64,000 nt of DNA from Mya arenaria (Eukaryota; Mollusca; Bivalvia; Myida; Myidae). Both the position numbers and the translations under genes were made by a program. How positions within the stretch are numbered: the stretch's first letter is position 1; every line of letters starts with the position of its first letter. Shown here in pieces: positions 21,676 through 64,000 of this stretch. Where the stretch lies: assembly GCF_026914265.1 (NCBI RefSeq), contig NC_069124.1, forward strand, positions 5,482,213 to 5,546,212, read 5' to 3'. The notes below the pieces were generated by a model, which worked only from the letters and a program-made list of their open reading frames with translations, had not been told where the DNA came from and searched no databases.

Positions 21676-22590
21676 ACTAACCATTGCCAATATGCATCCA
21701 AAACTTGACAAACCATTGCCAATATGCATCACAAACTTGACTAACCATTGCCAATATGCATCCAAAACTTGACAAACCATTGCCAATATGCATCACAAAC
21801 TTGACTAACCATTGCCAATATGCATCACAAACTTGACTAACCATTGCCAATATGCATCACAAACTTGACTAACCATTGCCAATATGCATCCAAAACTTAG
21901 TCTAACTATTGCTAATATGCATCACAAACTTGACTTACCATTGCCAATATGCATCCAAAACTTGACAAACCATTGCCAATATGCATCACTAACTTGACTA
22001 ACCATTGCCAATATGCATCCAAAACTTGACAAACCATTGCCAATATGCACCACAAACTTGACTCACTATTGCTAATATGCATCACATACTTGACTAACCA
22101 TTGCCAATATGCTTCACAAACTTGACTAACCATTGCCAATATGCATCCAAAACTTGACAAACCATTGCCAATATGCACCACAAACTTGACTAACTTTTGC
22201 TAATATGCATCACATACTTGACTAACCATTGCCAATATGCATCACAAACTTGACTAACCATTGGCAATATGCATCACAAACTTGACGAACCATTGCCAAT
22301 ATGTATCACAAACTTGACTTACCATTGCCAATATGCATCACAAACTTGACAAACCATTGCCAATATGCATCACAAACTTGACTAACCATTGCCAATATGC
22401 ATCACAAACTTGATGAACCATTGCCAATATGTATCACAAACTTGACTTACCATTGCCAATATGCATCACAAACTTGACTAACCATTGCCAATATGTATCA
22501 CAAACTTGAAAAATTAATTTCTGGAGCAGTCCGGAAAACTTTCACCCATACCCAAAACCATTGCCAATATGCATCACAAACTTGACTAAC
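21676..22590. repeat. 32-bp satellite array, about 28 units
   Basis: The unit is CTTGACTAACCATTGCC plus AATATGCATCACAAA. Two variants (ACTAACC after ATCACAA, and ACAAACC after ATCCAAA) tend to alternate in the left half, which suggests a 64-bp higher-order unit. The long minus-strand frame here is a translated repeat. Confidence 0.85.
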
Positions 22591-32700: not shown

Positions 32701-35700
32701 TGGCCCTGAATCGCTCACCTGTCATATATTGCACATTCTTCCATTATATACAAATATTGAAAACCTAAGCCTATGAACACGGGGCGTGGCCAATTTTGAC
32801 CCCAGGGCTAAAGTTTGAACAATCTTAATAGTGGTCCGATAAACGATGCTTCAAACCAAATATCTAAGGCCTTCGCCTTTTGGTTTCGGAGAAGAAGATT
32901 TTTTAAGTTTTCATCATATACATATATAAGGAAACCCATGACCGCCCGGGTGGGGCCATTTTTTGACCCCAGGGCCAAAGATTGAACAATATTGGTACAA
33001 GTCAACTAGATGATATATCATGCCAAATATCTAAGCTCTTGTCACTACTTGATTTTACGTGTGTATCTATATATGTATATTTGTTATTAATTGTTGTATG
33101 TGGCCCATATTGAAAATTGGTATGTGTACTAAATATGTTATCCAGTTTAAATTAAGACGTTACTTGTCTTTGTGAGTTCGGAGAAGATTTTTTAAGTTTT
33201 CACTATAACACATATATTTATCTCTAAACATATAGAGAATACCCATGACCCCCGGGGCAGGGCCAATTTTGACCCCAGGGCCATAATTTGAACAAACTTC
33301 GTAGAGGTCCACTAGACGATGAATCATGCCAAATATCTAAGCTCTAGGCCAAGTAAGTTCAGAGGAGAAGATTTTTTTAAGTTTTCACTATAAACATATA
33401 GAGAAAACCCATGACCTCCGGGGCGGGGCCAATTTTGACCCGAGGGCCATAATTTGAACAAACTTTGTAGAGGTCCACTAGACGATGAATCATGCCAAAT
33501 ATCTAAGGTCTAGGCCAAGTTAGTTCAGAGGAGAAGATTTTTAAGGTTTTCACTATAAACATATAGAGAAAACCCATGACCCCCCGGGGCGGGGCCAATT
33601 TTGACCCCAGGGCCATAATTCGAACAAACTTTGTAGAGGTCCACTAGACGATGAATCATGCCAAATATCTAAGGTCTAGGCCAAGTAAGTTCAGAGGAGA
33701 AGATTTTTAAGGTTTTCACTATAAACATATAGAGAAAACCCATGACCCCCCGGGGCGGGGCCAATTTTGACCCCAGGGCCATAATTTGAACAAACTTTGT
33801 AGAGGTCCACTAGACGATGAATCATGCCAAATATCTAAGCTCTAGGCCAAGTAAGTTCAGAGGAGAAGATTTTTTAAGTTTTCACTATAAACATATAGAG
33901 AAAACCCATGACCCCCCGGGGCGGGGCCAATTTTGACCCCAGGGCCATAATTTGAACAAACTTTGTAGAGGTCCACTAGACGATGAATCATGCCAAATAT
34001 CTAAGCTCTAGGCCAAGTAAGTTCAGAGGAGAAGATTTTTTAAGTTTTCACTATAAACATATAGAGAAAACCCATGACCCCCCGGGGCGGGGCCAATTTT
34101 GACCCCAGGGCCATAATTTGAACAATCTTGGTAGAGGACCATTTGGTGATCCTAACTACCATATATCAACGGCCTAAGCCTTGTGGTTTGGGAGAAGAAG
34201 ATTTTTAAAGTTTTTCCTTTTGTTTGCCATGGCAACCAGAGTTCTGCATGGAATTGAATTCTTTGAACAACTTTGATAGAAGACCACCCAAGGAACATCC
34301 CTATGAAGTTTTATTAATATTGGCCAAGTGGTTAAGGAGATGTCTTTTAAGTAAATTGTTGACGGATGACGCACGCCGCACGCCGGACGCCGGACAAAAG
34401 GCGATCACAAAAGCTCACCATGTCACAAAGTGACAGGTGAGCTAAAAAAGCAAGAAAATTCTTGACTTCTCTTTTAGATTTGATTGTTTTCTTCATAATG
34501 GAAACCAGAGTATATATTAGGCAATTCCAAATATATAATTGAAGTTTAACATTCTTTTGAAAATCAAGAATCATTTAAGACTTGAGATTGAATCTTTAAA
34601 AGCAATGGCAGAGTTAATTGTAACTGTTTTCAAGTTACTATAATAACATGACAAATTAAGGAAGCAAAACTATTCATATTTTGAAAGCCATGTCATTCTG
34701 TTCTTTGAAGTCCATTAATACACATCAAAATATAATTGCAGATATAAATAGTACAAAATAATAATTGTCATGTTTCTGTGGTTGTCTCGATGTCTCCAAA
34801 GTTCAGTTCTAACCACCCGTGTAATGTTAAATAGCCAACCTTTTCGGTTAATTGAGTAGTAAGCACTTTGTCTACAATCTTAGGTTAGTCTGGTCACATT
34901 CCTATGGTTTATTTAGACTAAATATCTGTCTGGCTGTTTTCAAATCCATGACCCAGTATAATGATTGGAAATCTGATAAGCCACAGCTGTATTTGGTAGA
35001 GAATAATATCAGCATATTTTTTTCAGGAAATATGACTACCTCCTATACTTAGAAGAAGAGTGAATGACATTGCGCAATACTGAAACTTCCCAATTAGGGT
35101 GATGTCAGAGTTATTACCTTGTAAATTATTAATCAATCTTTGTACAAAGACAAACATGGAATAAAAAAGTTTCTATGTGAATATTATTTTCATCCTAATT
35201 TCATAACATGAATGAAAATGTCCTCATGAGAAATCAAACAAGAAACATTTCTATGTTTTGCTAGTCTTGCCCTTTCGAAATGGTTATCTGATAAATATTT
35301 CAGACAGACAGATATTGTGCATTTGTTTGTACTTATAATTGATCAACAGAAGCAAATGGAACATGGTAAAAAAATGCAATGAAGTTGACTCAGTCCTAAA
35401 ATGTAGGTAGTTTCATTGCCGCAATGGCAGTCAATTTCCAGTTTTATCCTTCATGTTTTTGTATGAACTATTTCTTGAATATATTGGTAATGATCAAACT
35501 AATAATCAATCAATGTGCTGCCACACCAGTTGGCTGCATGTACACCAGAGAAAAATATCCTCCAGTTGTATGGTTGTTTCTAAATCATTTTACGACATAT
35601 TTAATATTCATGGAAGTAATTGCTGTATCAAAAATCTTTAAAAAATTGCCATATAATTGTTTGGACAACCGGTAGTTGAAATCCTGTATGTCTGTCTGTC

Positions 35701-47371: not shown

Positions 47372-47937
47372 AGGTCAACAGGATACATTCCACTAATTTA
47401 TGATGAAACTAAATGCAAAGATTATGTGTTGTTAAATGACTGTTAAATATTAAAATGCATTCCGCACAATTTTATTAACATCATATTGTTGTGATCTGGG
47501 AACCAGTCACATTATTCATTTATGATAACCAGAAGCTGATGTAGGGAACCAGCTAGCAGGAAAACAGACAGACTTTGACTGACCACCACTGAGACCTGAC
47601 GGACTTATTACTTCTTGACGATCACCTTATATCCATCATCATCCGATACATAGATTCGACGCTAGTGCTCATCTTTATCAGGTATGTTTGTATGGATATT
47701 CGTTATTATGTCGGGATCACAATAATATTTCACATGGCAGGTCTCAGAATTCACCTGCTTTATTATAAAAGTGATAATCAACTGAACTGTTACGGAAATC
47801 GTTCGGAATTTCTGAATTTTGTGTTGGTATAATAGACTGGCCGGACAAAATCAAAATACGCACCGCTATGTTTTAAAAACATATAAGGAGAATTAACTGT
47901 GACGCACTTCCGGCGGTGCGGGGTGATACAGGAATCC
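47372..47937. other. Stretch with promoter-like traits, no coding frame
   Basis: Mixed base composition with an ETS-type ACTTCCGG at about 47909 and a donor-like CAG|GTATGT near 47681. A plus-strand untranslated exon is possible. Nothing is secure. Confidence 0.3.
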
Positions 47938-49045
47938 AGTGGATTTCACGTGAAATCCACTCAAAACGTGAAATCCACTCAGAACTCATTTATTTTAATT
48001 AATAATTTAATTTTTTGTATACATATTAGAAAGTGCCTCATGAAGGGTTTATATTTCAAATTTTATTGAAATTGGTCAAAAAATAAAGAAGTTAGAGCAA
48101 TTTTTTTTTTCCAAAAATAGATCGGAAATCGAGGTGAAATCCAGATTCCGATAAGTGAAATCCACTCATAACTCATTAATTTTAATAAATAATTTTCTGT
48201 TTTTGTATATTTATTAGAAAGTGCCTCATAAAAGGTTTATATTTCAAATTTTATTGAAATTGGTCAAAAAATGAAGAAGTTAGAGCAATTTTTTGAAAAT
48301 AGATCGGAAATCGAGGTGAAATCCAGTTTTCGAGAAGTGAAATCCACTCATTTCTCATTAATTTTAATAAATAATTTTCTGTTTTTGTATATTTATTAGA
48401 AAGTGCCCCATAAAGGGTTTATATTTCAAATTTTATTGAAATTGGTCAAAAAATGAAGAAGTTAGAGCAATTTTTCGAAAATAGATCGGAAATCGAGGTG
48501 AAATCCAGTTTTCGAGAAGTGAAATCCACTCTTTATTCACTTTTATTAATTATTAATTTTTATTTTTTGTATACATTTTGGAAAATGCCTCATGAAGGGT
48601 ATATATTTCAAATTTTATTGAAATATATCAAGAAATGAAGAAGTTAGAGCAATTTTTCGGAAATCGAAGTGAAATCCACATTTTGACAAGTGAAATCCAC
48701 TTTTTCAGACGTGAAATCCACTCACAACTCATTTATTTTTAACAAATTAATTTTTCTGTAGAACAAATAATTGAAAGGGCTTCATAATGGGTTTATATTT
48801 CAAATTTTATCCAAATTGATCCAAAAATAAGAAAGTTGTAGACCTATTTTGAAAAAAGATCGGAAATCGAAGTGAAATCCACATTTTGACAAGTGAAATC
48901 CACTTTTTGAGACGTGAAATCCACTCATAATTCATTTATTGTTAACAAATTATTTTTTTGTCGAACAAATAATTGAAAAGGCTACATAATGGGTTTATAT
49001 TTCAAATTTTATTCAAATTGATCCAAAAATAAGAAAGTTGAAGTT
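47938..49045 (+). repeat. Left long array of ~175-bp units, inverted relative to the array at 54290-55743
   Basis: Six units contain GTGAAATCCACTC, ATATTTCAAATTTTATT, AAGAAGTTAGAGCAA and GATCGGAAATCGAGGTGAAA. The outermost bases form the palindrome GTGGATTTCACGTGAAATCC. Variant units follow a fixed order from the outside in (GATTCCGATAAG type, then GTTTTCGAGAAG, then CATTTTGACAAG). The right-hand array shows the same order in reverse orientation. The short word GTGAAATCCAC recurs more than a dozen times. A frame of 61 codons here is a repeat translation. Confidence 0.85.
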
Positions 49046-49066
49046 ATATTGTGAGGGCGTTTTGTT

Positions 49067-49324
49067 TAGTTTAAACATATTTATTTTACAACGATTGTGA
49101 AACAAGTTATTACAACATTATATTAATCACTCTCGTTGGCACGATTTTACGCGAGAGTGTGGTCTTGTGTTGTGGGGGAAACTGGAGAACCCGGAGAAAA
49201 CCCACTTACCGGCTTGGTGACCACAAACTTGGTTGTCCGGTTAGCGCAGTGGTTAGCGCACTCGCTTCTCACCTAGGCGACCCGGGTTCGATTCCCGGCT
49301 TGGGCGCATGTGAGTTTGGTTTGT
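49067..49324 (-). mobile_element. tRNA-derived SINE with its 5' head inverted, 12-bp target duplication
   Basis: GGGCGTTTTGTT occurs at 49055-49066 and 49325-49336. Inside, 49067-49225 is the SINE body and tail on the minus strand (GGGTTTTCTCCGGGTTCTCC...). The tRNA-like head (GGTTAGCGCAGTGGTTAGCG, B box GGGTTCGATTCCCGGC at about 49282) lies on the plus strand, the opposite orientation. This is the product expected from twin priming by a LINE machinery. A related SINE in normal order is at 59198. Confidence 0.75.
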
Positions 49325-49336
49325 GGGCGTTTTGTT

Positions 49337-50157
49337 GTGTATGCATAATTGTTTAAAAAAATTTCATGATAAACACAATATCCATACACATCCAGGCCAT
49401 ACCACGTGGAGGCGCCCTCAATCATGGCCCTTTTTTACTTTCGAATTTTGAAAATATTAAAAATTTAATAAATAATCCGAAAATTGTTTTGTATTATTTG
49501 TTTATGCTAGACATTTATTTATGGTTATTTATACATGTACATTGGTTGATATACGTAATCATAAAAAAAATAAAAAAAGAAACGAACAAATACAACAGAA
49601 CAAAGTTACACCAAGTGAAATCATATGTTTAATTTGGTTTACAATAATGTGAGATAATGAAAAGGTATGTTCACAACAGTTAAGGAAAATAATTACACAA
49701 AATAAACAATAGCAACATATGAAAAAAATATACACAGGTAAACAGAAAGGGGAAACTTCAAAGACAAATTTCTAAGCAAAAGAAGTTTCAACGCACAGAG
49801 AAAACGCATCAATAATCTTGTTCGAAAAAGTGTACAATGCATTGAAATGAAGGACATAAGATTTCATAAGGACTATCACAGTGACATGGTGCACTACAAA
49901 AACAAAGGACACATTAAATACTTTCACGCCATCAGGAAACATATTACGTAATTTCACAGATTAATACGAGCTAAAAGCAATTATTGTGATGTTAGTTATA
50001 AATATGCTTTTTGTTGTAGTAATAGTAGTAGTAGTTCGCAAATGTGCTTATAAAAACACGTAGTTATTAATTTATTGTTGTTATAAAGTTGTTATTTATG
50101 TTTTCAAATGGGCTTCATTCAATCATTTAAAGATGTAGTAATATCTATTCATGATTG
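49337..50157. other. Gene-free stretch
   Basis: AT-rich sequence between the SINE and the zinc-finger frame. No coding evidence. Confidence 0.5.
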
Positions 50158-50460
50158 TTAATGTACTTTTAAACTTATTATGAAATATATTTTTGAAATG
50201 AATAAATATTGCATTAACTCATATAAAACGTCTCCGTTTTCAATAATAAGCATATTATTCAGTGCTGCTGTGTAGTTGTACTCATTCCCGACATAAGCAC
50301 ACTTTATACACGCTAACTTGAGATGACGTTGGTCCCAAGACTTAAGCTCAAGCTTGCCCATTTGACAACATGTACGATGGCACCACAACTTACAATTATC
50401 ACAATAAATTGAGTCAAGTGCACATGCCTCAAGGCATACACTACACGGAAAGGTTCCCAT
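50158..50460 (-). CDS. PHD-like zinc-finger ORF fragment, probably from a transposable element
   Basis: From ATG at 50460 the frame reads MGTFPCSVCLEACALDSIYC, DNCKLWCHRTCCQMGKLELK and then CIKCAYVGNEYNYTAALNN. The pattern C-x2-C, C-x2-C, W-C-H-x2-C and C-x2-C is PHD-like, as in ORF1 proteins of molluscan LINEs or in transposon accessory proteins. The downstream residues are low complexity and may be untranslated. It lies between the inverted arrays and left of the LINE on the same strand. It may be part of the array-bounded element or a fragment of another LINE. Confidence 0.45.
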   Translation of the reverse strand: MGTFPCSVCLEACALDSIYCDNCKLWCHRTCCQMGKLELKSWDQRHLKLACIKCAYVGNEYNYTAALNNMLIIENGDVLYELMQYLFISKIYFIISLKVH

Positions 50461-50768
50461 TTTATGAACAAATACAGCAGAAATATACAGAAACAATTAA
50501 TTATCCTTTTAAATATCCAAATATAATAAAACAAAATACACAGAAACAATTAATTATCCGTTTAAATATCAAATAATACGTATATCCAACACTACATGTT
50601 CATAGCATAAAAAATAAAAACATAGCAATGACAATTGCCATTTCTGATACATTTTATACTTGCCATATCTTCTCAAATTCTTTTTCGGCATAAAATAATT
50701 ACTGCCATTGTACTAAACTTCTTTAATTTTACCGCCGAGTATGTTATGTCAACTTTCTCGGATATGGT

Positions 50769-53700
50769 TTATAGTTTATAGTTTATTTATCTTTTCCCAG
50801 AAGGTCATAGACCCATGTGGTACAATTTGCAAAATATATAATATGGCAAACGTGCATCAATATTAAGTTGACATGATCTCATACATGCATTACGGTAGCA
50901 CATTTTACATAGGAAATGAAGACTTATATTCACCTATTACATGATGTACATGTTTATAATAATTCACATTTTCGTCGTATGTGTCAAAAGTATATATGCA
51001 ACATAAGACTTAAAAGAATAAAAAGTGTGACAAAAATCCAGTTGTACTGACATTACATATTAGATTAGACCTATCACTAGTGCTGTAGATAATTTGACAA
51101 ATTAAAACCTTTCTCATATTGAATTTAAATCACATTGATAACGAAAGTGTGAATTTTACATACATTTTTACATATTGCATACACCATTTTCGACAATAGT
51201 AATATTTAAAGAAATTTTTTAACAAATTTGATTTGATTGTGCACGGGAGATATTTGCTATGGTCTTAACACTCTACCTGTATATCGAGTTATGTAACATC
51301 CGCCGCGCTTGACCCGAAAGTGTGTTTTGTGCTTCAGAAAAAGAACCTCCAGTAGTGAATACAATACCTAGGTATGTAAATTTGTTTACAACTTCAACAG
51401 GACAATTATTATAATAAAACATAGTATCAACATTCAAACGGCCACCTTTGCGAAAAATCATAATTTTAGTTTTATCAGTGTTAACAACTAATTTCCACTT
51501 ATTACAATATTCATATAACATATCTAGACTATTCTGTAATTCATTTTCAGTGTTTGCAAATAAAACAATATCATCCGCGTATAAAATAAGAAATATTTTA
51601 AACATATTGACATCTATACCGTGCATACCACTATGTATATACATGTCTTCAATATCATTTAGAAACATAGCAAATAAAAATGGTGATAAGCATTCACCCT
51701 GACGTACCCCTAAAATATAATTAAATGGTTCACTTAAAGAGTTACAATATTTTACTCTTGATTTTACTGAGTTGTACATAGATCTTATAATATTCAATAT
51801 TTTGCCACGGACGCCTAATTGTATTAATTTCAGCCACAAGTTGTCTCTAACAACATAATCAAAGGCTTTGCTAAAATCAATAAAAGCGCAATATAATTTT
51901 TTACCGTTATTAATCATATGAGAAATAAAACCATGCAAAACAAATATATTATCTACCGTGCCCATTTTTTGCCTGAAGCCTGACTGGGCCTCAATATATA
52001 CACCATAATTTTCTGCCCATTCTACCAGTCTATTATTTAAAACACGTGAAAATAATTTACCTAATGTACTCAATAATGTAATTCCTCTATAATTGTTTTC
52101 ATCATTGATATTGCCTTTTTTATGTAGGGGTATTACAAATCCTTCAGACCAACTTTCTGGGAAATATCCTACTTCAAAAAGTTTGTTAAACAGGTTTAAC
52201 AAAAATGGCATTAAAACATGTTTACCATTAATAAAGAATTCGTTAAGGTATTTATCCGGACCACTACTTCTATTTGTCTGTAGTTGACGAATTGCTTTTA
52301 GTAAGAACTGTTCAGTAATAGGGACATTCAATTCATGAAACATTATATTAAAATCATTTTGTTCATATCTCTCTATAAAATACAAAACATCTTCATCAGG
52401 CCTAAAAAAGTGATCATCTGGGTTATTCACAGACTCAAAATATTTCTTAAATACATCAATTTGAATATTAGACTGTTTAACACCAGCACAAGTTTTAAGC
52501 ATTTTCCAATACAACTTTACGTTTTTATGTTTTGCCTCGGTTAATTTTGCCGTTTCATTGCGGTCATAATCCATTTTACATTTGCGTATACATGATTTAT
52601 ATTTCGTACGTGCATGAACCATATTTTGTCTATTAAAATCAGATCTATTATTTCGATAGACATTTAACATTTTGTGAAAAATAGTTCTAAGTTCAAAACA
52701 TTCTTGCGTATACCATTTACAATCAACAATATGAGTGGCTGAAGTATTGCTATCAGCGTTTAATGTGTGTTTAATATCCTTTTTAAACAAAGGGGACGCA
52801 ACCCCGTCAATAATATTAGAAAAATCAGTAATACATTCATCAATATCAGAAGAAGACTTAACATTATTCACCTTGACATTGAAATAATTAAGTTTACTCA
52901 TCGTATTTTCTGAAGATAGGTTTTCAGCAAACATATGCTTTTTACCGTTATTCCACACATATTTGAAGCTATCTCTAGTTTCACATGACTTGGCATTTTC
53001 AACATGTACAGATACAGGTTTATTAAAAACAAGAGATATATCCACAAGGCAGTGATCACTTAATATATTTGGATCTTGTACCTCAAAAACGTCAATATAT
53101 TGAAACAAATTTTGTGTACTTATTACGTAATCAACTAAACTACTACCTCTACTCCCAACAAATGTTTTGCGACCTATATATTTATCTTTGCCAAACCTTG
53201 AATTCAGAATTCTTAGGCCAGTATGTTTACAAATATCTAACAATGTTAAACCATAACTATTTACACGGCATTTATCTTGTGAATAACGATTCATAACTGG
53301 GTCAATATCATAATCAACAGGTAAAACATTCATATGAGCACAATAATTATCATCAGTGACAAAATCAGGATAATTACTTGTGTGAGCATTCATGTCACCA
53401 AATAACATAAAATTTAGATTTTCTTCACATGTAGACCCTAAGCTAGTAATAAAGTCCGTAAGACGATCAAACATACTTGTTTCTATCATTGATTGTCTAC
53501 TACTGTTCTCGGGAACTGCATAACATAAGCACACATACAAGTCGTTTTGCAAAGACAATAAATTACCACTAATTTTAATACATACAATATCATCATCGCT
53601 CTGAAATACGAGAGTATCATTTGAAACAAAGTTATCTCTCAGATATAAAATAATACCACCAGAATCTCTTTTGCTAGATTTTTTGCTCTGAGTTCTATGT

Positions 53701-53900
53701 AAAACGTAATAATGAAAATCATTAACATGCAAATCAACACTTTCATTTGACCAAGTTTCGGTAAATAGCACAATGTCATGCGAATTAAATACCGACTGCA
53801 GTTCAGGCGATTTTAATTTATCAGTTCGCTTCGTTTTTAAACCCTGTACATTCAGCAATGCACACCTAAGCGTGACCTTCTCAGCTGTGTCCTACTGACC
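50769..53900 (-). mobile_element. Non-LTR retrotransposon (LINE) with a shortened ORF2
   Basis: It reads right to left. An endonuclease-RT frame (53897-51273) is followed by about 500 bp of 3' sequence ending in AAGATAAATAAAC then ACTATAAACTATAAAC at 50784-50769, a microsatellite-like LINE tail. No ORF1 is present at the 5' side, so the copy is 5'-truncated. The C-terminal part of ORF2 after SGQA is missing, with the frame closing ten residues later. This points to an internal deletion between ORF2 and the 3' tail. Confidence 0.8.
51273..53858 (-). CDS. LINE ORF2: apurinic-type endonuclease and reverse transcriptase
   Basis: The protein nicks target DNA and primes reverse transcription of element RNA. 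The 861-codon frame shows the endonuclease blocks LNVQGLKTK, VLFTETW, LMLFGDMNAH-like FMLFGDMNAH and the late SDHCLVDISL. The RT blocks are VIPLHKKGNINDENNYRGIT, SGFRQKMGTVDN, FIDFSKAFDYV, GVRQGECLSPFLFAMF and catalytic LYADDIVLF. It resembles the jockey/CR1-like LINEs common in bivalves. The frame continues upstream to about 53897 without an ATG. It ends MLHNSIYR, which is not the usual continuation after KFTYLGIVFTTGG...SGQA, so the C-terminal region is lost. Plus-strand ORFs here are shadows. Confidence 0.9.
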   Translation of the reverse strand: MLNVQGLKTKRTDKLKSPELQSVFNSHDIVLFTETWSNESVDLHVNDFHYYVLHRTQSKKSSKRDSGGIILYLRDNFVSNDTLVFQSDDDIVCIKISGNLLSLQNDLYVCLCYAVPENSSRQSMIETSMFDRLTDFITSLGSTCEENLNFMLFGDMNAHTSNYPDFVTDDNYCAHMNVLPVDYDIDPVMNRYSQDKCRVNSYGLTLLDICKHTGLRILNSRFGKDKYIGRKTFVGSRGSSLVDYVISTQNLFQYIDVFEVQDPNILSDHCLVDISLVFNKPVSVHVENAKSCETRDSFKYVWNNGKKHMFAENLSSENTMSKLNYFNVKVNNVKSSSDIDECITDFSNIIDGVASPLFKKDIKHTLNADSNTSATHIVDCKWYTQECFELRTIFHKMLNVYRNNRSDFNRQNMVHARTKYKSCIRKCKMDYDRNETAKLTEAKHKNVKLYWKMLKTCAGVKQSNIQIDVFKKYFESVNNPDDHFFRPDEDVLYFIERYEQNDFNIMFHELNVPITEQFLLKAIRQLQTNRSSGPDKYLNEFFINGKHVLMPFLLNLFNKLFEVGYFPESWSEGFVIPLHKKGNINDENNYRGITLLSTLGKLFSRVLNNRLVEWAENYGVYIEAQSGFRQKMGTVDNIFVLHGFISHMINNGKKLYCAFIDFSKAFDYVVRDNLWLKLIQLGVRGKILNIIRSMYNSVKSRVKYCNSLSEPFNYILGVRQGECLSPFLFAMFLNDIEDMYIHSGMHGIDVNMFKIFLILYADDIVLFANTENELQNSLDMLYEYCNKWKLVVNTDKTKIMIFRKGGRLNVDTMFYYNNCPVEVVNKFTYLGIVFTTGGSFSEAQNTLSGQARRMLHNSIYR

Positions 53901-54289
53901 CTTGTCTGTAGTGTTGACCATAGTAGGGGAAAACAGTATGTGATGTATCACCTTAACCGCTAAATGCGAAAGTAACGGCACGTGAGAGTCGTGATCCTCG
54001 TCTTTGATAGATATAGATCAAAGACAAGAGTAATTATTAAACGATATTATAGAACTAATATATTGGATAGTGGTTACTTACAGTAAAAAACACACCAATA
54101 TATTGCATCTCAACTGATTCAGATATTAGATCTAATGTTATATAAGAAATCTCGACTAAAACGGATTAAATGATACTAATGTAAGTAAATAAAACATAAA
54201 AACATTAAAATATAATCATCGGACACAAGCAACTACTGTATTAATATTAAGATACTTGATTGAATTTATTTCTTTACACTTTTCTTTCC
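53901..54289. other. Gene-free stretch with a short hairpin
   Basis: 53998-54031 forms a hairpin (CTCGTCTTTGAT against ATCAAAGACAAGAG). A minus-strand donor-like ACTGTAAGTAAC is near 54085. No coding frame. Confidence 0.45.
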
Positions 54290-55743
54290 CAAATACTGGA
54301 TTTCACTTGTCAAAATGTGGATTTCACGTCGCTTTCAGATCTATTTTCAATATATTTATCTAACTTCTTCATTTTTTGACCAATTCCATTTAAATTTTAA
54401 ATATAAACCGATGATAATGCCTTTTCAATTATTTGTTCAACAAAAAAAAATTGTTAAAAATAAATGAGTTATGAGTGGATTTCACGTCTGGAAAAGTGGA
54501 TTTCACTTGTCAAAATGTGGATTTCACTACGCTTTCAGATCAATTTTAAATATATTTATCAAACTTCTTCATTTTTGGACCAATTCCATTTAAATTTTAA
54601 ATATAAACCGATGATAATGCCTTTTCAATTATTTGTTCAACAAAAAAATCATTTGTTAAAAATAAATGAGTTATGAGTGGATTTCACGTCTGAAAAAGTG
54701 GATTTCACTTGTCAAAATGTGGATTTCACTTCGATTTCCGATCTTTTTTCAAAATAGGTCTACAACTTTCTTATTTTTGGATCAATTTGAATAAAATTTG
54801 AAATATAAACCCATTATGAAGCCCTTTCAATTATCTGTTCTACAGAAAAATTAATTTGTTAAAAATAAATGAGTTATGAGTGGATTTCACGTCTGAAAAA
54901 GTGGATTTCACTTGTCAAAATGTGGATTTCACTTCGATTTCCGATCTTTTTTCAAAATAGGTCTACAACTTTCTTATTTTTGGATCAATTTGAATAAAAT
55001 TTGAAATATAAACCCATTATGAAGCCCTTTCAATTATCTGTTCTACAGAAAAATTAATTTGTTAAAAATAAATGAGTTATGAGTGGATTTCACGTCTGAA
55101 AAAGTGGATTTCACTTGTCAAAATGTGGATTTCACTTCGATTTCCGATCTTTTTTCAAAATAGGTCTACAACTTTCTTATTTTTGGATCAATTTGGATAA
55201 AATTTGAAATATAAACCCATTATGAAGCCCTTTCAATTATTTGTTCTACAGAAAAATTAATTTGTTAAAAATAAATGAGTTGTGAGTGGATTTCACGTCT
55301 GAAAAAGTGGATTTCACTTGTCAAAATGTGGATTTCACTTCGATTTCCGAAAAATTGCTCTAACTTCTTCATTTAATGATATATTTCAATAAAATTTGAA
55401 ATATAAACCCTTCATTAGGCACTTTCCAATATGTATACAAAAAATGAAAATTAATAATTAATAAAACTGAGTTAAGAGTGGATTTCACTTCTCGAAAACT
55501 GGATTTCACCTCGATTTCCGATCTATTTTCGAAAAATTGCTCTAACTTCTTCATTTTTTGACCAATTTCAATAAAATTTGAAATATAAACCTTTTATGAG
55601 GCACTTTCTAATAAATATACAGAAACAGAAAATTATTTATTAAAATTAATGAGTAATGAGTGGATTTCACTTATCGGAATCTGGATTTCACCTCGATTTC
55701 CGATCTATTTTTGGAAAAAAATAAAAAATTGCTCTAACTTCTT
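54290..55743 (-). repeat. Right long array of ~175-bp units, inverse of 47938-49045
   Basis: About eight units carry GAGTGGATTTCACGTCTG, GTGGATTTCACTTGTC, TTGGATCAATTTGAATAAAA and TTGCTCTAACTTCTTC. From the right edge inward the variant order matches the left array (GATTCCGATAAG, GTTTTCGAGAAG, CATTTTGACAAG types), with one unit fewer of the second type and extra inner units. The outermost ~150 bp of the left array has no counterpart; the array stops in mid-unit at 55743 against the transposase coding sequence. Confidence 0.85.
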
Positions 55744-55744
55744 A

Positions 55745-56506
55745 ATGCTTCCTAAATCTAAACTGCTTGAAGATTCAGACATGCTTCTGCTTACTCTGAT
55801 GAAAATCAGACTTAATCCACCACAAAAGGATCTGGCATACAGATTTGGGATCTCTGAGTCATCGGTGACGACCTACATACACTCAGCCATTCCAGCTCTG
55901 GCCAAAAAGTTGACCTTCCTCATTCACTGGCCTGAACGAGAAGAAGTTATGAGTTCCCGACCGCAGTGTTTCAAAGAGACCTATCCGAAATGTGTCTCTA
56001 TAATTGATTGCACAAAGGTTTTCATTGCTGCGCCAGCTGACTTTGAAGCAAGAAACGCGACATACAGTTCATACAAACATACTCACACAGTGAAGTTTCT
56101 AGTGAGCATCACTCCGGCTGGAGCTGTCTCCTTTGTTTCACCTGCATATCCTGGAAAAATTTCTGACAAAGTTTTAACTAATGACTGTGGATATCTTGAC
56201 TTCATTCAACATGGTGATGTGATACTTGCTGACCGTGGTTTTTTAATTGGTGATGAACTAAATGAGTTAGGTGCTGAACTTGTCATACCTGCATTTACCA
56301 GAGGTAAATCGCAATTGAGCGCAAGGGATGTTGAAAGTGGGAGAAAAATATCAAATGTAAGAATCCATGTGGAAAGGGCAATGGAAAGACTGAAGAACTT
56401 CAGAATCTTGTCAGATCGAATGCATTCGAATATGGTTCCACATGCTGACAGTATAATGACAATATCAGCGGCAATCATGAACTTGCATCCAAATCTGGTC
56501 AATTAA
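55745..56506 (+). CDS. DDE transposase of the Harbinger/ISL2EU group, N-terminally short
   Basis: The enzyme cuts and pastes its DNA element. From ATG at 55745 there are 253 codons; the open frame runs 96 bases further up into the repeat array, which is not natural coding. A helix-turn-helix-like DLAYRFGISESSVTTYI is followed by the catalytic triad: D in CVSIIDCTKVF, D in VILADRGFL and E in IHVERAMERLKNFRIL (residues 120, 195 and 242 of the longer frame). HARBI1-like DDE_4 proteins are usually longer at the N-terminus, so upstream coding sequence was probably lost or displaced where the array joins. AATAAA at 56657 follows. It converges on the YqaJ gene. Confidence 0.85.
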   Translation: MLPKSKLLEDSDMLLLTLMKIRLNPPQKDLAYRFGISESSVTTYIHSAIPALAKKLTFLIHWPEREEVMSSRPQCFKETYPKCVSIIDCTKVFIAAPADFEARNATYSSYKHTHTVKFLVSITPAGAVSFVSPAYPGKISDKVLTNDCGYLDFIQHGDVILADRGFLIGDELNELGAELVIPAFTRGKSQLSARDVESGRKISNVRIHVERAMERLKNFRILSDRMHSNMVPHADSIMTISAAIMNLHPNLVN

Positions 56507-57500
56507 CTGCTTTTATGCATTCCATGTACACTCATTTGTGATTTTAGAATAGTACTTGTATTATACAAATTTTTATGTCTCCAATGTTGATTATTTTATA
56601 ATACTTGTATTGACTGATTTGAATTCATTGTGTAAACTGACGTTCATGTCATAAAAAATAAAATATTTATTTATTTCCAAGAAGTTATTTCTTTTTAATT
56701 TTCCATGTTATATCATATAAAGTTAATAAATGTTATTAGACCTGGCATAGTCAGTTCTTACATGCAAATAAAATGAATCAAAATTAAGAGGCTGCCTTTA
56801 TAAACCATTTGTTTAGGAATACAGCTGCCGTCAATTGACTGTAAACAAACTCAAAGAACAAATAAGTTCCAATGCGCAATGCAATATAAACCTGGTTTAA
56901 CAATAGAAAAATAAGTGTTAAAGTTTTGGCGAGATCTTTAGTATAAGCTATCGATTCAAGATGACAGTGTGAGTAGAAATCCATATTTAATGTGTAACTT
57001 TAAATTGGCAAGCAATTGTCATAACATGATAATGCATTTCAAATGAAAGTCAACCTTATTTTCAACCAATTTTCTGTTCATTTGACACCAGGCCTTTACT
57101 AGGCATGCCATGGGGCAGATATCTTGACCAATCCCCATTGGCTTAAAACCCATCTCTACCTAGTGCTTCCAGTCTGATATAAGCTTTACTGTAAAAGTGA
57201 TTTGTTGCTAAAAATCATGCATGGAATGTGAATGGTACCAATACTTATGGTATTCAGTTAATCATTGCTGAAACATATATTAGGATTTAATGTAGGTTGC
57301 TGTATAATAATCAAAACAAGACAGTTTGAGCACTAAAGTAAATTTATATAGATTTCAAAACAAACATAAATTTCAATATATTCATGAATGTATGTATCTG
57401 AGCACTGACAAAATGATAAGCTTGCACTTTCATAAACTTGGCGTCCTACACCATGATGTTATGTCTTTTAAGGTGTCACCACATCACTGACCACCAGTTT
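56507..57500. other. Spacer between convergent transposon genes
   Basis: AT-rich, no coding frames. AATAAA at 56657-56662 probably ends the transposase transcript. A further 0.8 kb shows nothing recognisable. Confidence 0.5.
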
Positions 57501-59102
57501 CTATTTCTTACACCTCGGGCATAACCATCTACCCCTTGGTTTCCTTTTCACATTGACACAGCCATAATGACACCAGCCAATCTGGCAGTCCTCATTGGAG
57601 CACAGGATCATTTTCCCGTACTCGCGTTCCTCACATATGCACCAAGTCTGTACATCTTCAGTTGGCGTGTTCACTACTTGTTTGTTTCTCAGCTTTGATG
57701 TCATAAGTTCAGGGAGGAGGTGGTGAGACAAAAAAGCATTACACTTCTTTTCAAGGTTGTCAATGAATTGACTGTCTCTTTGAACTCGAATGATTACAAG
57801 ACTGGGTGTCCCAGAAGGCTGAGTCAGAACTACAAAGTCACAATACTGGACACCATAAACCAGCATCTGGAACTGCACTTGAGTATAGTATCTGTGCTTT
57901 TGTTTAAGTTTTAAGTTCTTATCAAGGCAGAATTCTTTGTCACATTTAGCGGCTTCTAGTGCCATTACAGATTTGTGCTTAAATGGACATTTGATCTCCA
58001 GTGTGCCAATTCCACAGCAGACACAACTTACAACGCCATCAGCTGTTGCTCCCAAGTATGGACTTGTTTCACTCACCAAAAGTCCAGACTGAGAACAACC
58101 AAAGTTTGAATGTTGAGACTTAACATGCTGTTGGTACATGTCTCTTGCACTGGATTCATTGTCAAGTCCCCACTTTACGCAATCCTTCTTGCTGAGGTCA
58201 TATGATTTGTATCCAGCAACACGCATCACCAAGTTATCTGGGCATGTAGAGTCTTTAAGAGTAAGAACATCATGAGCCTTTGTTGCTGTTATTAATTCTT
58301 CCTTTTCTATGATTATACCACAAAGGAGAGATGTTCTGTCCTTTTGTCTTGTTAAATAGAGTTATCACTTGATCAGATGTAACTTTAGTAGAAGAAATAA
58401 TGTCTTGTGCCTTAGATCGGAGTTCATTTTCAGGGAGGTTTTCATTGTTTTTATTGTACAAGTTCATGGGAAGCAGTGGAAGTGGATCTTCTCTGATTGG
58501 TGGTGCAAGTTTTTGGTTTGGGACAACACTTGGTATCAGGTTGAAAAATGATGCATTTGGACATGCGGCATACAGGGCCTTCAGCTGTTCTTCACTTGGC
58601 AGGGGATCGCGACTCGTTGTGTTGACTGACTCGACCTTCTTTTTTCTGTTCCCGAACAAGTGCTGCATCTTCGTTACAGGACTTGGGTCAACCTTATGTG
58701 TAAATATCACATGTTATTCATAACCGAAAAAACTACAAGTGCAATTACTGTTGCTCATGTATTATTTTGCTTCTTAGTTTTTCAATAAATTAGGTAGAGA
58801 ATGAAACATTCTTGGTGCCAATAAAATAACTAAAACAGTTTATTTTCACTGCATTTCTCACTTATACTCCAACATATTTGATTCCTACTGACAAGGCATC
58901 TTTAAATTGAAAATAAAACTTCTATCACAAATTTACCTGCTCTTTGAAATGCTGATTCCACATCCGACCGACATCTGTGGAGGACTTTTCTGTGTATCTC
59001 CATCGGACAGCTAGCTCGACTTTGAAGAGAATGGCAGCTACATGGCTACATGTTTCTCCCAACCTGAAAATTATTTTAGAAACATGTTTAAAAAAATGAA
59101 CC

Positions 59103-59136
<34 letters not shown>

Positions 59137-60186
59137 TCTGCTGAAAACAACCACAAATAGGCTCCATTGTGGCATTTAATATTTCCGACACAGAACAGTT
59201 CGGTTGTGTGGTTAGCACAGTGTTTAGCACACTCACTTCCCATCAAGGTATTCTGGGTTTGAATACCTGCCTGGCATTTCTGTTCCCCTGCAACACAATC
59301 CCACACTCTCACGGAACAATATGACAACAAGACTGACTATATTAAACTAATTATTATTATCCGTTGTTATTTCATTTAATGAAATTTGAGTGAACCCAAT
59401 AATCTTTATTATTTATTTGCCTTGGTATATTTGCGAAAAAAGTTAACATACCCTGCCATACATGTGCAATGTGCACAGTAGACTTCAGCGCTAACTTTTT
59501 CAAGACACACCCAGGCTGAATGGGGCTCGTCCCTGGTCCGCATAGACGGGGTGACAGCTGCTCGCAGAAAGCAGTATGGACTCTCTTCAACGTTGTAGTA
59601 GTGTACAACCTGCACATGTTTGCTTTCCACATATCTAGAAAATACATATTAAAGGTTTGTAACCCCAACCACTGACAAATATATGTAGTTTTATGATAGA
59701 TGTAAGTACTGACTCTTATTATGTACATGTATTTTGTTATAAGCTGAGACATCTTTACAGCACAGATAAAAATCACATATTATTAAAACAGTTTAAATAA
59801 AGAATATTGAAAAGAGCATACAATACATGTACAATGCAGTGCATGTACACGAATTTCATTAAACAACATGTAAACGATTATACTGTATGGTTTATATACA
59901 TGTTTCTGTACCTGTAAGCCTCAAGGCTCTTGTAATTTCTCATGGATGTGGGGTTGAAGAGGGCTGGACTCAAAATCAGGTAGGTATAAAGCTGTCCGAA
60001 ATCTAGACTGGGCCAATTTGTCAAATCACGACTCCATTTCTCATCAGGAACTTTGTACGGGTCTGGGAGAGTTTTCAGACCTTTATCAAACATCAGTTTG
60101 GAGAAATACCTTTTTCTCGCTTCACTATCAAGTCCTTTAACATAAATTGACACATCTGTCAAGATTTCCCGTACTTTTTCAGCCAT
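57501..60186 (-). CDS. YqaJ-type nuclease with SWIM and PHD zinc fingers, four exons
   Basis: Exons are 59912-60186, 59452-59634, 58937-59063 and 57501-58692, with GT-AG borders and matching phases (about 590 codons). The start is MAEKVREILTDVSIY. A SWIM finger (CAHCTCMAG|LGETCSHVAAIL) is split by intron 2. The YqaJ exonuclease core has the metal-binding motifs LGATADGVV, LEIKCPF and YYTQVQFQML. A PHD finger (WCICEEREYGKMILC...GRWLCPRCKK) closes the protein. One extra A in a run near 58300 shifts the frame just before EELITATKAHDVLTL, so this copy is broken or the base is an error. Convergence with a DDE transposase suggests the accessory gene of an ISL2EU-type transposon; a domesticated host copy is the alternative. 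Confidence 0.8.
59104..59135. repeat. (TA)n microsatellite in a YqaJ-gene intron
   Basis: Sixteen TA units at the edge of intron 2. It makes the Tyr-Ile runs seen in overlapping short frames. Confidence 0.95.
59198..59350 (+). mobile_element. Diverged tRNA-derived SINE
   Basis: GGTTGTGTGGTTAGCACAGT and TCTGGGTTTGAATACC are weak A and B boxes. The body continues with CCCCTGCAACACAATCCCAC and ACTCTCACGGAACAATATG, matching in normal order the SINE at 49067-49324. It lies in intron 2 of the YqaJ gene. Confidence 0.65.
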
Positions 60187-60300
60187 GACCTTTGAAATTT
60201 TACGGTTCAGATAATAACAACAATGGCGATTTGGCCGATCGATTGACGGCCAGCAAATGCGCATGCGCGGAAGTTGCGTCATTCTCGGGATTCCCAAATT
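60187..60300 (-). promoter_or_regulatory. Promoter of the YqaJ gene with NRF-1 and YY1-type sites
   Basis: TGCGCATGCGC at 60258-60268 is a full NRF-1 palindrome and CGCCATTG at about 60222 a YY1-type site. The segment is locally GC-richer with several CpGs and has no TATA box. This is a housekeeping-style promoter just upstream of the ATG at 60186. Confidence 0.5.
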
Positions 60301-60388
60301 CTTATTTATTAAAATTATATTTTATTATGTCTGTCTGTGCGCCGGTTTGTGCGCCGGTACGTGCATCTGTAAGTGCGGCTGTATGTAT

Positions 60389-60820
60389 GTCTAAAGTAAA
60401 CCTAGGAGGAAAAGTGCACCCGCAGTGCGTTCAGTAAGGCGAGCGTTTACAAAACGCTCGCAAACGTTTTGTTTTGTATCCCTGCTGCAACGCAGCGCAT
60501 ACACGTTAAGCGGGAAACCAAACAGCGAACGTTCGCCGCAAACATCTTTACTGAACGCGCGGCCGGTGTGGGGCTCGAACCCACGACCGCTGGAAAACTA
60601 GCACGGCGCTCCAACCAACTGAGCTAACCGGGCGGCTGGTTCTTACACACTACACTCCTCGCCCCATTAACCTTAAAGGCCGACGGAGGCACTCCTGCCG
60701 TTTACCGCTGCCACCAGTAAAGTAAACCTGGGAGGAAAATGCGCCCGGTGTGGGGCTCGAACCCACGACCGCCGGAACACTAGCACAGCGCTCTAACCAA
60801 CTGAGTTAATCGGGCGGCTG
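60389..60820 (-). mobile_element. Dimeric tRNA-Ile-like SINE, interrupted by a MITE
   Basis: Two tRNA-like heads on the minus strand (60818-60744 and 60636-60560) both read CCCGGTTAGCTCAGTTGGTT or a close variant, with B box GTGGGTTCGAGCCCCAC, most like tRNA-Ile. They are joined by a linker (GTAAACGGCAGGAGTGCCTC...). A tail CTTTTCCTCCTAGGTTTACTT follows the second head. The anticodon arms are degraded, so these are not tRNA genes. The same head-linker-head-tail order recurs at 62880-63172. Confidence 0.75.
60427..60558. mobile_element. Small TIR element inserted in the SINE
   Basis: It starts GCGTTCAGTAA and ends TTACTGAACGC (exact complements, 11 bp), with internal GCGAGCGTTT/AAACGCTCGC and CGAACGTTCG palindromes. 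It separates the SINE tail (CCTAGGAGGAAAAGTGCACC) from the head, while the neighbouring head at 60744 shows the uninterrupted form. Length 132 bp. Confidence 0.6.
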
Positions 60821-60840
60821 GTTCTTACCCACACACACTA

Positions 60841-61145
60841 CATGTCTGTCTGTACCTGGGAGTACTATTGGTCCCAGTCTGTACGTCTGTCTGTGCGACT
60901 GTCTCTGCGTCTGTCTGTATGTATGTACGCCTGTCTGTATGGTCAGTGGGTCAAAGGTCAAGATCGTGGTGGCCTTGTGCTGAAAATATTTTTTCCGATC
61001 AAGAACTAAAAAAACCTTCGTTCCAGGTGACTTCAAACTTGATATTATGCAGGTTGGTGAAGACCAGTAGGTTAACCGAATTGATTTTTGGTCAGTGGGT
61101 CAAGGTCGTGGGTACGTTACTTCTCCACTTTTGTAAATTAATTTT
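60841..61145. repeat. Fragment of a tandem-core repeat with CTGT simple sequence
   Basis: GTCTGTCTGTACCTGG and many GTCTGTCTGTATG words precede two units with CAGTGGGTCAAAGGTCAAG and ACTTGATATTATGCAGG, related to the arrays at 13754 and 19041. Confidence 0.5.
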
Positions 61146-62660
61146 AAGTATTTAATACATTTTCCGTCCGTGTACCATCAACAAATGTTTGATGTAAAAA
61201 TGGATTGATGACGTTCCTTTATGTGTTAAGAGTATGTTTGAATACTATGACTATACTTGGTCTATTGCTTCTTGTTTTAATTGCTAAATGCAGCTTTGCG
61301 TCCAAAATAATAATATAAAAAAATTCAAACTTGAAAACAAATTTAAAATTAATTATATATTTTTTTTCTGTGAAGTTAAAAACAACTATTGTATATATAT
61401 TTAATATAATGAAAACACCAGGGACACGCCCAGTATACCTTCTGGTAATACAGAGACATATCGAATTGGACCAGGTAAACGAGCTATGGCCTCGATCAGA
61501 GCTGGAAGGTCTTGGGTACTTTGTGAATACATTAACCCGGCGGTACACTATGCGATACATCGCCGTTACTTATGCCCAGCCTCTATGAGAGGACGGTCGG
61601 CCACTGGTATTACAGCATGGATATTGTGATTGTACATGTAGTTCCTCTGTAGTCAGACTGACCTACGACCTACGCTGGACCATTTTCAGTTTTCAAATGT
61701 TGGTATCCGTGAAATGAAATGGCCACAGTTGACGGTGGCGTATTCCATAAGAGGCCGCACCGTCAGAGTAGTAATGCGGACTTCTACGGTCTTTCTTGAG
61801 CATTGTTGAATGCTACATCAAAGGAAGGGTCGGATGGTGTTGGCTTTATGGTGAAAGTGCTGAGATGGTAATCAAAATCGGTGATTTGTGGACGTCGGGC
61901 CTTAATATTTTGCTAAAACGTATGTTTTCTTACTGTATGTCCAAGGACGTTGAAATGTCGTCTGCGTGACTTTCGTTTGTACTTTCAAATTACCTGGCAT
62001 TTTGGAGGAGTGCAACATCCTGTCATTGGAATGGATGTGGCGATAAAGCACACACTCGTCAACAAAGAATCTAGGTGTTGATTCAGTGAGATTTTGTTTG
62101 GAAAGTAACTTGTATTGGGAGAGGGCCGGAACTGATGTTGGTATAACTCGTGGCCCGATCCCTTAATTTGCATGTCAGATAATCACTCATTTGTTTTAAA
62201 TAAGGTATATATATATAGGTAAATATGATATATTTGTATTGATTTATTGTCAACATACCTGCAATAAACTATTATTAAACTAAAAGTTCGTGAACGCAAC
62301 AGTGTAAGTTGGTACGTACTCAATACAAATTTAACTTGGACCGGAGGCGTTGTATACCATGGTTGTCATTTTTCTTGCTTGTTGTTAATCCCAAGAAGCG
62401 TTTTAGTTTTTATAAAAATGTACACGTTTCATGCATCACTTCGACATACTAAATTAAATAATTAATAATCGACAATACGGAAATAAATCCGACTTTTGCA
62501 TAGTGGACTGTAACCAAAATCTTTTCTTTATTTTTACTTTGAGTTAATATCTTTTTTGACATTTTGCAAAACAAAATGAAATTAATGAAAACATAACAAT
62601 TTTCTTATATACAATCACTCACTGCATGAAATAGGAATCGAATAAGGCACAATAAACAAA
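61146..62660. other. Stretch upstream of the myotubularin gene, no gene recognised
   Basis: 61430-62170 is clearly less AT-rich than its surroundings and has frames on both strands (for example PGTRPVYLLVIQRHIELDQV on plus from about 61420). None matches a family I know. It could hold decayed transposon coding sequence or the promoter and leader of the next gene. Confidence 0.35.
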
Positions 62661-62801
62661 ATGGATTCAAACTCAATATCAGAATCCGCTTCCTATCCAA
62701 TCAATGAATCATCAAGCGAAAAAGACACCGGCTCCCCGTCGAAATCAATCTGCTCGTCAGCATCGTCTTCCTCTGAAAATGTACACGCCCATGAAATGAA
62801 G
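62661..62801 (+). CDS. Myotubularin exon 1 with start codon
   Basis: ATG at 62661 (AAACAAAATGG, acceptable context) opens 47 codons ending ENVHAHEMK. The in-frame stop follows two codons into the intron, so splicing is required. The donor G|GTTTGATG is weak, but frame and phase fit the next exon. Confidence 0.7.
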
Positions 62802-63933
62802 GTTTGATGTTTTTTTTGGTTTGATATCCTTACGTTTGGCTTATTGTTTTTACATATTGTGTATTGGGTAAGCACTTGCCGCCAAGTTAGCTCAGTTTGT
62901 TAGAGTGATGTGCTAGTGTTCCGAGAGCCGTGCATGTCTTCGAGCTGTCTTGGTTTTGTAGCAACACCCCAGGCCAGATTTATTCACTGGTGTCTGAAGT
63001 AAAGAGCAAGAATGCTTCGATCGGCCTGAAAGGTAATTTTGGGAGGAGTGAATAGTTTGTGGGTAAGAACCAACCATCTGGTTAGCTTACTTGGTTTTAG
63101 CACCATACTAGTGTTCAGCAGTCTTAGGTTCTAGCCCCACCATGCCCACACTTTTCCTCTTAGGATAACTTAACATCGGTAAAAAAAAAGGCCAGACAAG
63201 GATTACATTAATATCAATAACTTTATCACCCGATGTTCACTGAATTGTTGTTTACTGATAAGACCATCTAAAAGTAAAACTAAAACTAGTCTCACACTAT
63301 TTTGTAAGGCTCCAGTGACTTAGGTACACCATTGACAAACAAAATAAATAAGACAAAAAAATTCAATGAATTGAAAGCTTAAATATTTTGTGAACTGTAC
63401 TATGTTCATTTCAGGTTTTCAAAGACCATAAAAAATATGGCCACTCAGATGATCTTCCTCTGTTGCCAGGCGAAATAGTTCAGGATTCGTCTTGTAAGTT
63501 TGTGTGTTCAATTATTCCGTAAGTTTAATGAACACTGTAAGCTGAATAGGAATCAGTGATATTATAATGTATTGGAACCACCGTTTTTTTCCTAAAAGTA
63601 ATGAGTTTGGAGAGTGTGGTCTTACTGTGAATCAAAGCCATGAGGAAACCGGTCATGGTTTGTATATTGCTCTTTGAGTCTCCTGTGATTTAGGTGTTCT
63701 TTAACTTTAGGCAAAGACCTAAATGGCAAGCTTTTGAAAAGGCATGTTTGATAAAAGAAGTAGACATAGCAGAAAATGTATGTACAATGTTGCTCTGTTC
63801 TAAATTTATTTATTTCATAACTGCTGTATCTATTTCAGGGAAGGATGTCACCTATCTGTGTCCCTACTCTGACTGCATTAAGGGAACACTGACCATCACC
63901 AACTACAAACTGTTCTTTAAAAGCACAGACAGG
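62661..63933 (+). CDS. Myotubularin-family phosphoinositide 3-phosphatase, first three coding exons (partial)
   Basis: Myotubularins of the MTM1/MTMR1/MTMR2 branch remove the 3-phosphate from PI3P and PI(3,5)P2 on endosomes. Exons are 62661-62801, 63415-63493 and 63839-63933, with compatible phases. The first gives a Ser-rich start ([20 protein letters not shown]) as in MTMR2. The second ends [14 protein letters not shown], matching the PPLLPGENIKDMA segment. The third reads [20 protein letters not shown] and then [12 protein letters not shown], the opening strands of the PH-GRAM domain. The gene runs off the right edge; the catalytic C-x5-R domain is not in the window. The first donor (GTTTGATG) is unusual. 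Intron 1 contains a dimeric SINE. Confidence 0.85.
62880..63172 (+). mobile_element. Dimeric tRNA-Ile-like SINE, plus-strand copy
   Basis: The first head at about 62880-62955 (GCCAAGTTAGCTCAGTTTGT, weak B box), a linker with ATCGGCCTGAAAGGTAATTT and GGAGTGAATAGTTTGTGGGT, and a second head at about 63075-63150 (TGGTTAGCTTACTTGGTTTT, B box TAGGTTCTAGCCCCACC) are followed by CACACTTTTCCTCTTAGG. The order is identical to the copy at 60389-60820, but it is older and more diverged. It lies in intron 1 of the myotubularin gene. Confidence 0.7.
63415..63493 (+). CDS. Myotubularin exon 2
   Basis: Acceptor TTCATTTCAG, donor GTAAGTTTG. Reads [20 protein letters not shown] and IVQDSS and ends in phase 1. 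Confidence 0.8.
63839..63933 (+). CDS. Myotubularin exon 3, start of the PH-GRAM domain
   Basis: Acceptor CTATTTCAG, donor GTATGGTC. Encodes [20 protein letters not shown] through FFKSTDR, closely matching human MTMR2 [20 protein letters not shown]. Confidence 0.88.
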
Positions 63934-64000
63934 GTATGGTCTTGTAATTTGCTCTCCAGCCTTACACTTAAGATATAAAAGATTGTACTCAGCGGTTAAA

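Follow-up and report, generated by a model that had tools for sequence, protein, structure and literature searches.

The window analysed here is a 64,000-nt stretch of the genome of the bivalve Mya arenaria (contig C3, 5482213 to 5546212), and it carries a broken, non-autonomous copy of a foldback-type transposon whose ends consist of tandem satellite units. The transposon family is real, with long inverted repeats of tandem units recurring in the genome around different interiors. It is assigned to the Mutator class, most likely as a Rehavkus-type family, and we give this reading as a whole a probability of roughly 0.87.

In the window, two mirrored arrays with the same order of units bound 5.2 kb, as described in the first-pass annotation of this DNA and as found in both the repeat table and the output of Tandem Repeats Finder. 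The measured periods are 182 and 203 bp and replace the earlier estimate of ~175 bp. The left arm (47914..49054, plus strand) comprises about six units, the number given before and also supported by the repeat table; its outer type is 182 bp long and contains two copies of the 11-bp word GTGAAATCCAC, and its inner type of ~203 bp contains three. The right arm (54292..55745, minus strand) is the same array inverted. About eight units had been counted there; the structure is as described, with about seven complete units plus a partial one, the outermost ~170 bp being gone and the arm ending at about 55745. The longest inverted pair, 48289-48958 against 55049-55718, spans 670 nt at 96% complementarity. 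With up to one mismatch, GTGAAATCCAC occurs 36 times in the window, compared with an expectation of 1.4 and a maximum of four in 100 shuffles, which bears out the earlier remark on its frequent repetition. Every one of the 36 is located within an array or at the left end.

The same word was counted in 39 arms of the family, again with one mismatch permitted. Each arm contains 11 to 28 copies (620 in total), spaced by exactly 21 bp in 318 of 581 intervals and by 18 bp in 38, with most of the remaining intervals measuring 149-173 bp. In most arms there are two motifs per outer unit and three per inner unit, with a motif absent or additional inner units present in some. The regular 21-bp spacing strengthens the initial idea of a protein-binding site and suggests that GTGAAATCCAC is bound by the transposase. 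The papers found for this word in the literature appear unrelated from their titles and abstract openings, and the exact 32-bp array word had 0 matches among viral contigs. The outer 420 bp of the arms are on average 98.0% identical within one element and 97.2% identical between elements, which hints weakly at homogenisation of the arms within elements.

The element begins outside the left array. Its left boundary, formerly placed at 47938, is at 47914, where a terminus of C or G (here C) followed by GGTGCGGGGTGATACAGGAATCC (47914..47937, plus strand) precedes the array. The array itself starts with a 24-bp perfect palindrome, AGTGGATTTCAC/GTGAAATCCACT (47938..47961), which is present at both ends of two-ended copies. 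Alignment of both ends of each element places the terminus beyond the arrays, as one C or G and GGTGCGGGGTGATACAGGAATCCA followed by the palindrome. The terminal 23-mer has 229 exact copies in the genome (107 forward and 122 reverse, with positions for the first 100 of them), whereas the reversed control has 0.

A genome search (1,216,080,610 bases in 18 contigs, with labels such as C3) with the 670-bp arm piece gave at least 132 matches from the best 40 of 526 candidates scored. Several of these lie in inverted pairs, with separations between 1.7 kb and, in the window, 6.8 kb. Twenty regions picked from the best matches were fetched first, and 28 loci in all (L009 to L036). Paired palindromic ends, each accompanied by an array, were found in 18 of the 20 regions; L019 and L022 show one end only. 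The left terminus of L028 was obtained from the adjoining fetch L029. Arm length ranges across elements from ~0.8 to 1.8 kb. In the genome-wide check that had been proposed, the foldback-type reading holds: the paired inverted arrays are found again with interiors of various lengths, while their outer ends stay constant and target duplications flank them. One doubt raised at the outset, that the inverted pair arose at a contig join, is unlikely, because the pair is seen on several contigs at many places, the majority of which have a 9-bp target duplication of their own.

Target duplications were read with one script in 17 elements, which yielded 14 exact 9-mers, one duplication with a single mismatch (L016), one of 10 bp (L025), and none in L009. 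All of the 272 mispaired controls had at least two mismatches. Four more exact 9-bp duplications were found in L028 (with L029), L030, L033, and L036, so that 18 of the 21 elements with both ends read have an exact one. Two pairs of copies, L018/L020 at 99.6% and L023/L024 at 99.8%, are nearly identical although the members of each pair sit on separate contigs and have different duplications, indicating recent multiplication. In the window, the presumed left copy of the duplication, CACTTCCGG (47905..47913), flanks the left terminus. No partner with up to one mismatch was found in 55701-64000, as expected with the right end lost.

Candidate transposase of the family

The interior of the window copy contains a PHD-finger exon of the family (50254..50460, minus strand). 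Searching the genome with this exon gave 103 rows, 59 of them at 70-100% identity, six shorter pieces at 76-96%, and 38 at 37-67%. In 12 of the 28 fetched loci the exon is followed by a splice-donor-like site with the exact word CG/GTAAGTGTAATATATA. This word is missing in the window copy and in loci without that part of the interior. Eight positions are invariant in six aligned PHD exons, and their pattern agrees with that of the zinc-binding residues in PHD fingers.

The MULE profile PF10551 (best 150 of 153 candidates scored) has 54 matches in the genome. Four are located downstream of family PHD exons on the same strand, at 846 bp on C13, 1.8 kb on C17, 2.7 kb on C15, and 0.4 kb on C8. A fifth, on C10, lies 4.8 kb from a related (40%) PHD exon. 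By chance, ~0.01 PHD-MULE pairs within 5 kb would be expected (54 x 103 x 5,000 / (2 x 1.216e9)).

The C13 locus, L036, is a 5.3-kb element with both termini, both arms, and the target duplication GGTCACTCC. Its PHD exon (2974-3180) is followed by a 529-aa open frame (3372-4958), which matches the MULE domain PF10551 with 35.9 bits (cut-off 27.6) and Transposase_mut PF00872 with 25.0 bits (cut-off 21). A MULE catalytic domain, the mark of the Mutator (MULE) superfamily, is thereby found within an element bearing the family ends. Two Asp, a Cys-x2-His and a Glu are readable by eye in the frame and are presumably the usual MULE residues. The PHD and MULE parts of L036 together likely encode the transposase of the family, and copies without the MULE frame would be mobilised in trans. 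In the window and 14 other fetched loci, only 16-20 residues from the start of this frame are left (residues 2-20 in the window, 50035..50091, minus strand), which fits an internal deletion or replacement in an ancestor that once had the frame.

Relation to known foldback elements

The following comparisons draw on excerpts of the cited papers. The features listed for the Rehavkus group, which is given there for arthropods and annelids, are 9-bp duplications, repeats of 26-400 bp, a PHD finger, and a minisatellite; the group is described as comprising few elements with hosts restricted to insects and annelids (PMC6446971). The clam family shares the 9-bp duplication, a feature not unique to Rehavkus, and the satellite array at the termini, and a PHD-type exon stands beside the MULE frame of L036. 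Its arms of ~0.8-1.8 kb are longer than the repeats listed for the group. Among the closest known elements is Rehavkus-1_TC from Tribolium castaneum, whose inverted termini consist of 164-bp satellite units, mostly five and eight monomers (PMC10218199). Both have short satellite arrays as inverted termini, with similar unit length and array size. The clam family differs in its units of 182/203 bp, the unit sequence, the host phylum, and the 24-bp terminal palindrome. No mollusc appears in the titles found for 'Rehavkus', and a bivalve foldback family is not mentioned in excerpts of three papers, two on oyster satellites and one on bivalve transposons (PMC8268682, PMC11136912, PMC10294476). It is possible that this is the first Rehavkus in a mollusc.

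Other foldback elements show parts of the same plan. Tm1 from Meloidogyne (Mutator/Foldback) has composite inverted repeats, 9-bp duplications, and a MULE transposase in few copies next to many non-autonomous derivatives (PMC3169594). It differs from the clam family in having a ~14-bp motif instead of ~200-bp units and FLYWCH instead of a PHD finger. Tetris from Drosophila virilis is a foldback element with ~220-bp tandem units in variable number and 8-10 bp duplications (PMC4079207); it is without a known transposase, and the likeness is one of description, not of sequence. Galileo from Drosophila belongs to the P superfamily and has long inverted repeats with several binding sites for its THAP domain, one determined by footprinting and further ones identified in tandem repeats (PMC3688188). 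It differs from the clam family in its P-type transposase with a THAP domain.

Unlikely, yet the strongest competitor, is a foldback MULE family of another group, either Phantom/FB like Tm1 or one of the mollusc MULE groups. The MULE domain, the 9-bp duplications, and the composite inverted repeats would all fit Phantom, and Tm1 of nematodes follows the same plan. The MULE table that describes Rehavkus also lists groups 15 and 19 from molluscs and a minisatellite in some Phantom elements (PMC6446971). Because both are on record, neither the minisatellite nor the mollusc host is decisive alone. Phantom proteins, however, are described with FLYWCH (or SWIM) fingers, whereas the clam family has a probable PHD finger, the type listed for Rehavkus, and unit length and array size resemble those of Rehavkus-1_TC. 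No FLYWCH match was obtained at E 0.1 in the two separate, unspliced frames of L036.

Several points weigh against the main reading. The Rehavkus label itself could be wrong, as mollusc MULE groups are known and the match was made by described features, not by proteins. The PHD exons of the window (16.5 bits) and of L036 (17.2 bits) fall below the Pfam cut-off of 24, the exon of L028 has no match, and only the exon of the related L031 passes (25.3 bits). Both ends are shown for one of the four PHD-MULE loci, namely L036, and its PHD and MULE frames would have to be joined by splicing of an intron predicted from sequence. L009 has no exact duplication at the boundary used. Finally, the fetched loci are best matches, among which degraded copies are under-represented.

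Ordinary satellite arrays inverted by a local inversion or inverted duplication, with no transposition involved, are a highly improbable source of the pattern: the arrays are satellite-like, and the 203-bp units of the right arm are 98-99% alike among themselves, so local homogenisation does occur, but the constant termini beyond the arrays and the exact 9-bp duplications contradict this origin, as does a single 31-bp match as the sole stretch shared by the 400-bp flanks of 17 elements.

The window copy, its neighbours and nested elements

To the right of the window copy lies an ISL2EU-type transposon remnant (55746..60297), outside the foldback element. It includes a plus-strand frame with DDE_Tnp_4 and HTH_Tnp_4 domain matches, which runs from the array stop to 56506, and a minus-strand YqaJ frame (57501-58232). 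Further minus-strand frames up to 60297 were grouped with it by eye, and this position is a provisional right limit. Most ISL2EU candidates have one open reading frame with DDE, HTH, and THAP and another with YqaJ (PMC4482050, in excerpt). A THAP domain gave no match in the DDE frame of the window. It had been observed correctly that the array stops where the DDE frame starts, the right arm reaching ~55745. With the N-terminal part of the frame gone, this point looks like a breakpoint. Two explanations had been offered for the junction. That the two sequences were joined by a rearrangement fits, with a truncated frame meeting a truncated arm; that the neighbouring transposase supplies the activity finds no support, as it belongs to a different family and is apparently truncated. 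A truncated ISL2EU element was probably fused to the truncated foldback element by a rearrangement in which the right terminus was lost, and the transposase next to the array is most probably a bystander.

Mobilisation of the family by this ISL2EU (PHIS) transposase is accordingly given very little credence. The transposase does abut the array of the window, and an ISL2EU-type YqaJ gene is found within L019. Against this, the DDE frame of the window has no THAP part, unlike the gene plan in print, and neither this frame nor the YqaJ frame is within the element. The target duplications of the family are 9 bp long, and L036 has a MULE frame of its own. The YqaJ segment of L019 (3138-6828) is an insert in the foldback interior, with a 2-bp junction overlap relative to L021. 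Among the fetched loci, no ISL2EU gene was seen in a family-ended element without signs of nesting.

The interiors of the copies are mostly 95-99% alike where they can be aligned, and the differences are deletions and insertions. In the window, the family interior is interrupted by two insertions. The first is SINE-like (49067..49321, plus strand), with a tRNA-like stretch (ARAGORN 49235-49307) and a ~12-15 bp duplication at its edges; it is not at the corresponding point in L009, L010, and the other compared copies. The second is a nested 3.2-kb non-LTR retrotransposon (50767..53936, minus strand) with an endonuclease and reverse transcriptase frame at 51273-53858 and a 4-bp junction overlap. 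The corresponding point is empty in L009, L013, and the other compared copies. The window copy is thus broken and non-autonomous, and probably immobile because its right terminus is lost.

A further trace in the interior is the 3'-end remnant of a GDSL/SGNH-type hydrolase gene (49742..49948, plus strand). Its 69 residues, the last of the hydrolase, occur in 21 of the 27 regions L009 to L035 in addition to the window, and were not found in L016, L022, L029, L031, L032, and L034. A longer frame of 156 aa in L035 matches Lipase_GDSL_2 with 30.6 bits, just below the cut-off of 32.9, and a frame upstream of it contains a GDS word. L036 has no significant match to the hydrolase piece, and its MULE frame starts near the place where other copies hold this piece. 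The gene fragment was presumably captured by a non-autonomous lineage; alternatively, L036 has lost it. SGNH/GDSL genes have been reported in other mobile elements (PMC4021074, PMC5408684, both in excerpt).

Two long open frames, both within two-ended elements having exact 9-bp duplications, offered themselves as a different transposase for the family, namely the OTU + DUF7869 protein of L028 and the 703-aa protein of L030. This is hardly plausible for either. The L028 frame is part of an insert that has 27-bp inverted repeats of its own and, by comparison with L027 and L015, an ATAT duplication. For the L030 frame there are 13 further copies, which match residues 5-703 at 98% and are all located away from PHD exon sites. 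The L030 insert replaces 79 bp of L009, and hence there is no clean empty site. Both L028 and L030 were therefore rejected as autonomous copies, their genes apparently being parts of other, nested transposons. L022 was rejected because it is rearranged. As sources of a transposase, L019 was set aside for its nested ISL2EU-type YqaJ gene and L033 for a nested mariner-like gene (named by eye from its sequence). The related PHD copies L031, L032, and L034 have no transposase within the fetched stretch, and L035 has the hydrolase gene and no transposase.

Some of these nested or related elements are observations in their own right. The 4.2-kb DNA transposon nested in the L028 copy (L028:2186-6411, in C8:51150500-51160000) has inverted repeats beginning CGTCCCATTAGAGC and a single 974-aa OTU + DUF7869 frame. 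It has 12 full-length, stop-free copies in the genome at 99-100%, plus many divergent ones. DUF7869 is probably a transposase domain, because it belongs to the one frame of a transposon with many copies. Searches of the literature for DUF7869 and PF25273 by name and accession found no paper, and no relatives of the L028 frame were confirmed in viral contigs. The 703-aa frame (L030:2678-4789, in C6:1737200-1746100) has no Pfam match at E 1, and several of its copies lie within 970-aa open frames; it looks like another uncharacterised transposon protein. L031 holds a small related element (139-1791) with a PHD exon, direct repeats of ~206 bp on the right, and a repeated word of its own, CGTATTTCGGT, which suggests a wider group of PHD/array families.

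Elsewhere in the window, two direct-repeat units that are 91% alike (60559-60650 and 60741-60832), 182 bp apart, received tRNA-Thr(AGT) calls and are perhaps tRNA-derived. At 33225-34141 a unit of 166 bp is tandemly repeated in 5.5 copies that are 97% alike. A perfect inverted repeat of 167 bp (19645-19811 and 21509-21675, 1.7 kb apart) is perhaps another transposon, and a 32-bp tandem array (21673-22509) adjoins it.

Proposed role of the arrays

In the mechanism that we propose, the PHD-MULE protein would bind the repeated GTGAAATCCAC in the arms, and the bound transposase would pair the two ends of the element. It would then cut and paste the element, leaving the 9-bp target duplication. Copies without the MULE frame would be moved by the same protein in trans, and the window copy would have dropped out of this cycle with its right terminus, probably during the rearrangement with the truncated ISL2EU element. 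For Foldback and Phantom elements, binding of transposase to the tandem terminal repeats was described as untested (PMC3688188, in excerpt).

A more tentative idea, which we consider doubtful, is that the arms are docking arrays of nucleosome length, with one nucleosome per 182/203-bp unit and two or three copies of GTGAAATCCAC, two helical turns apart, exposed in the linker. If this were true, each arm would present 11 to 28 transposase-binding sites on one face, and the ends would be joined through them. Selection would then explain why units of ~160-220 bp recur in foldback-type ends (TCsat23, TIR-220, and the clam family), and the hydrolase fragment, which in most sampled copies stands next to the lost transposase frame, would be a Pack-MULE-like gene capture.

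The clam family has multiplied recently: some copies are nearly identical, the ends can be read, the arrays come in many variants, and at least one copy encodes the likely transposase. The role of the arrays is therefore directly testable in this family, which represents one route by which satellite-like units spread through a bivalve genome.

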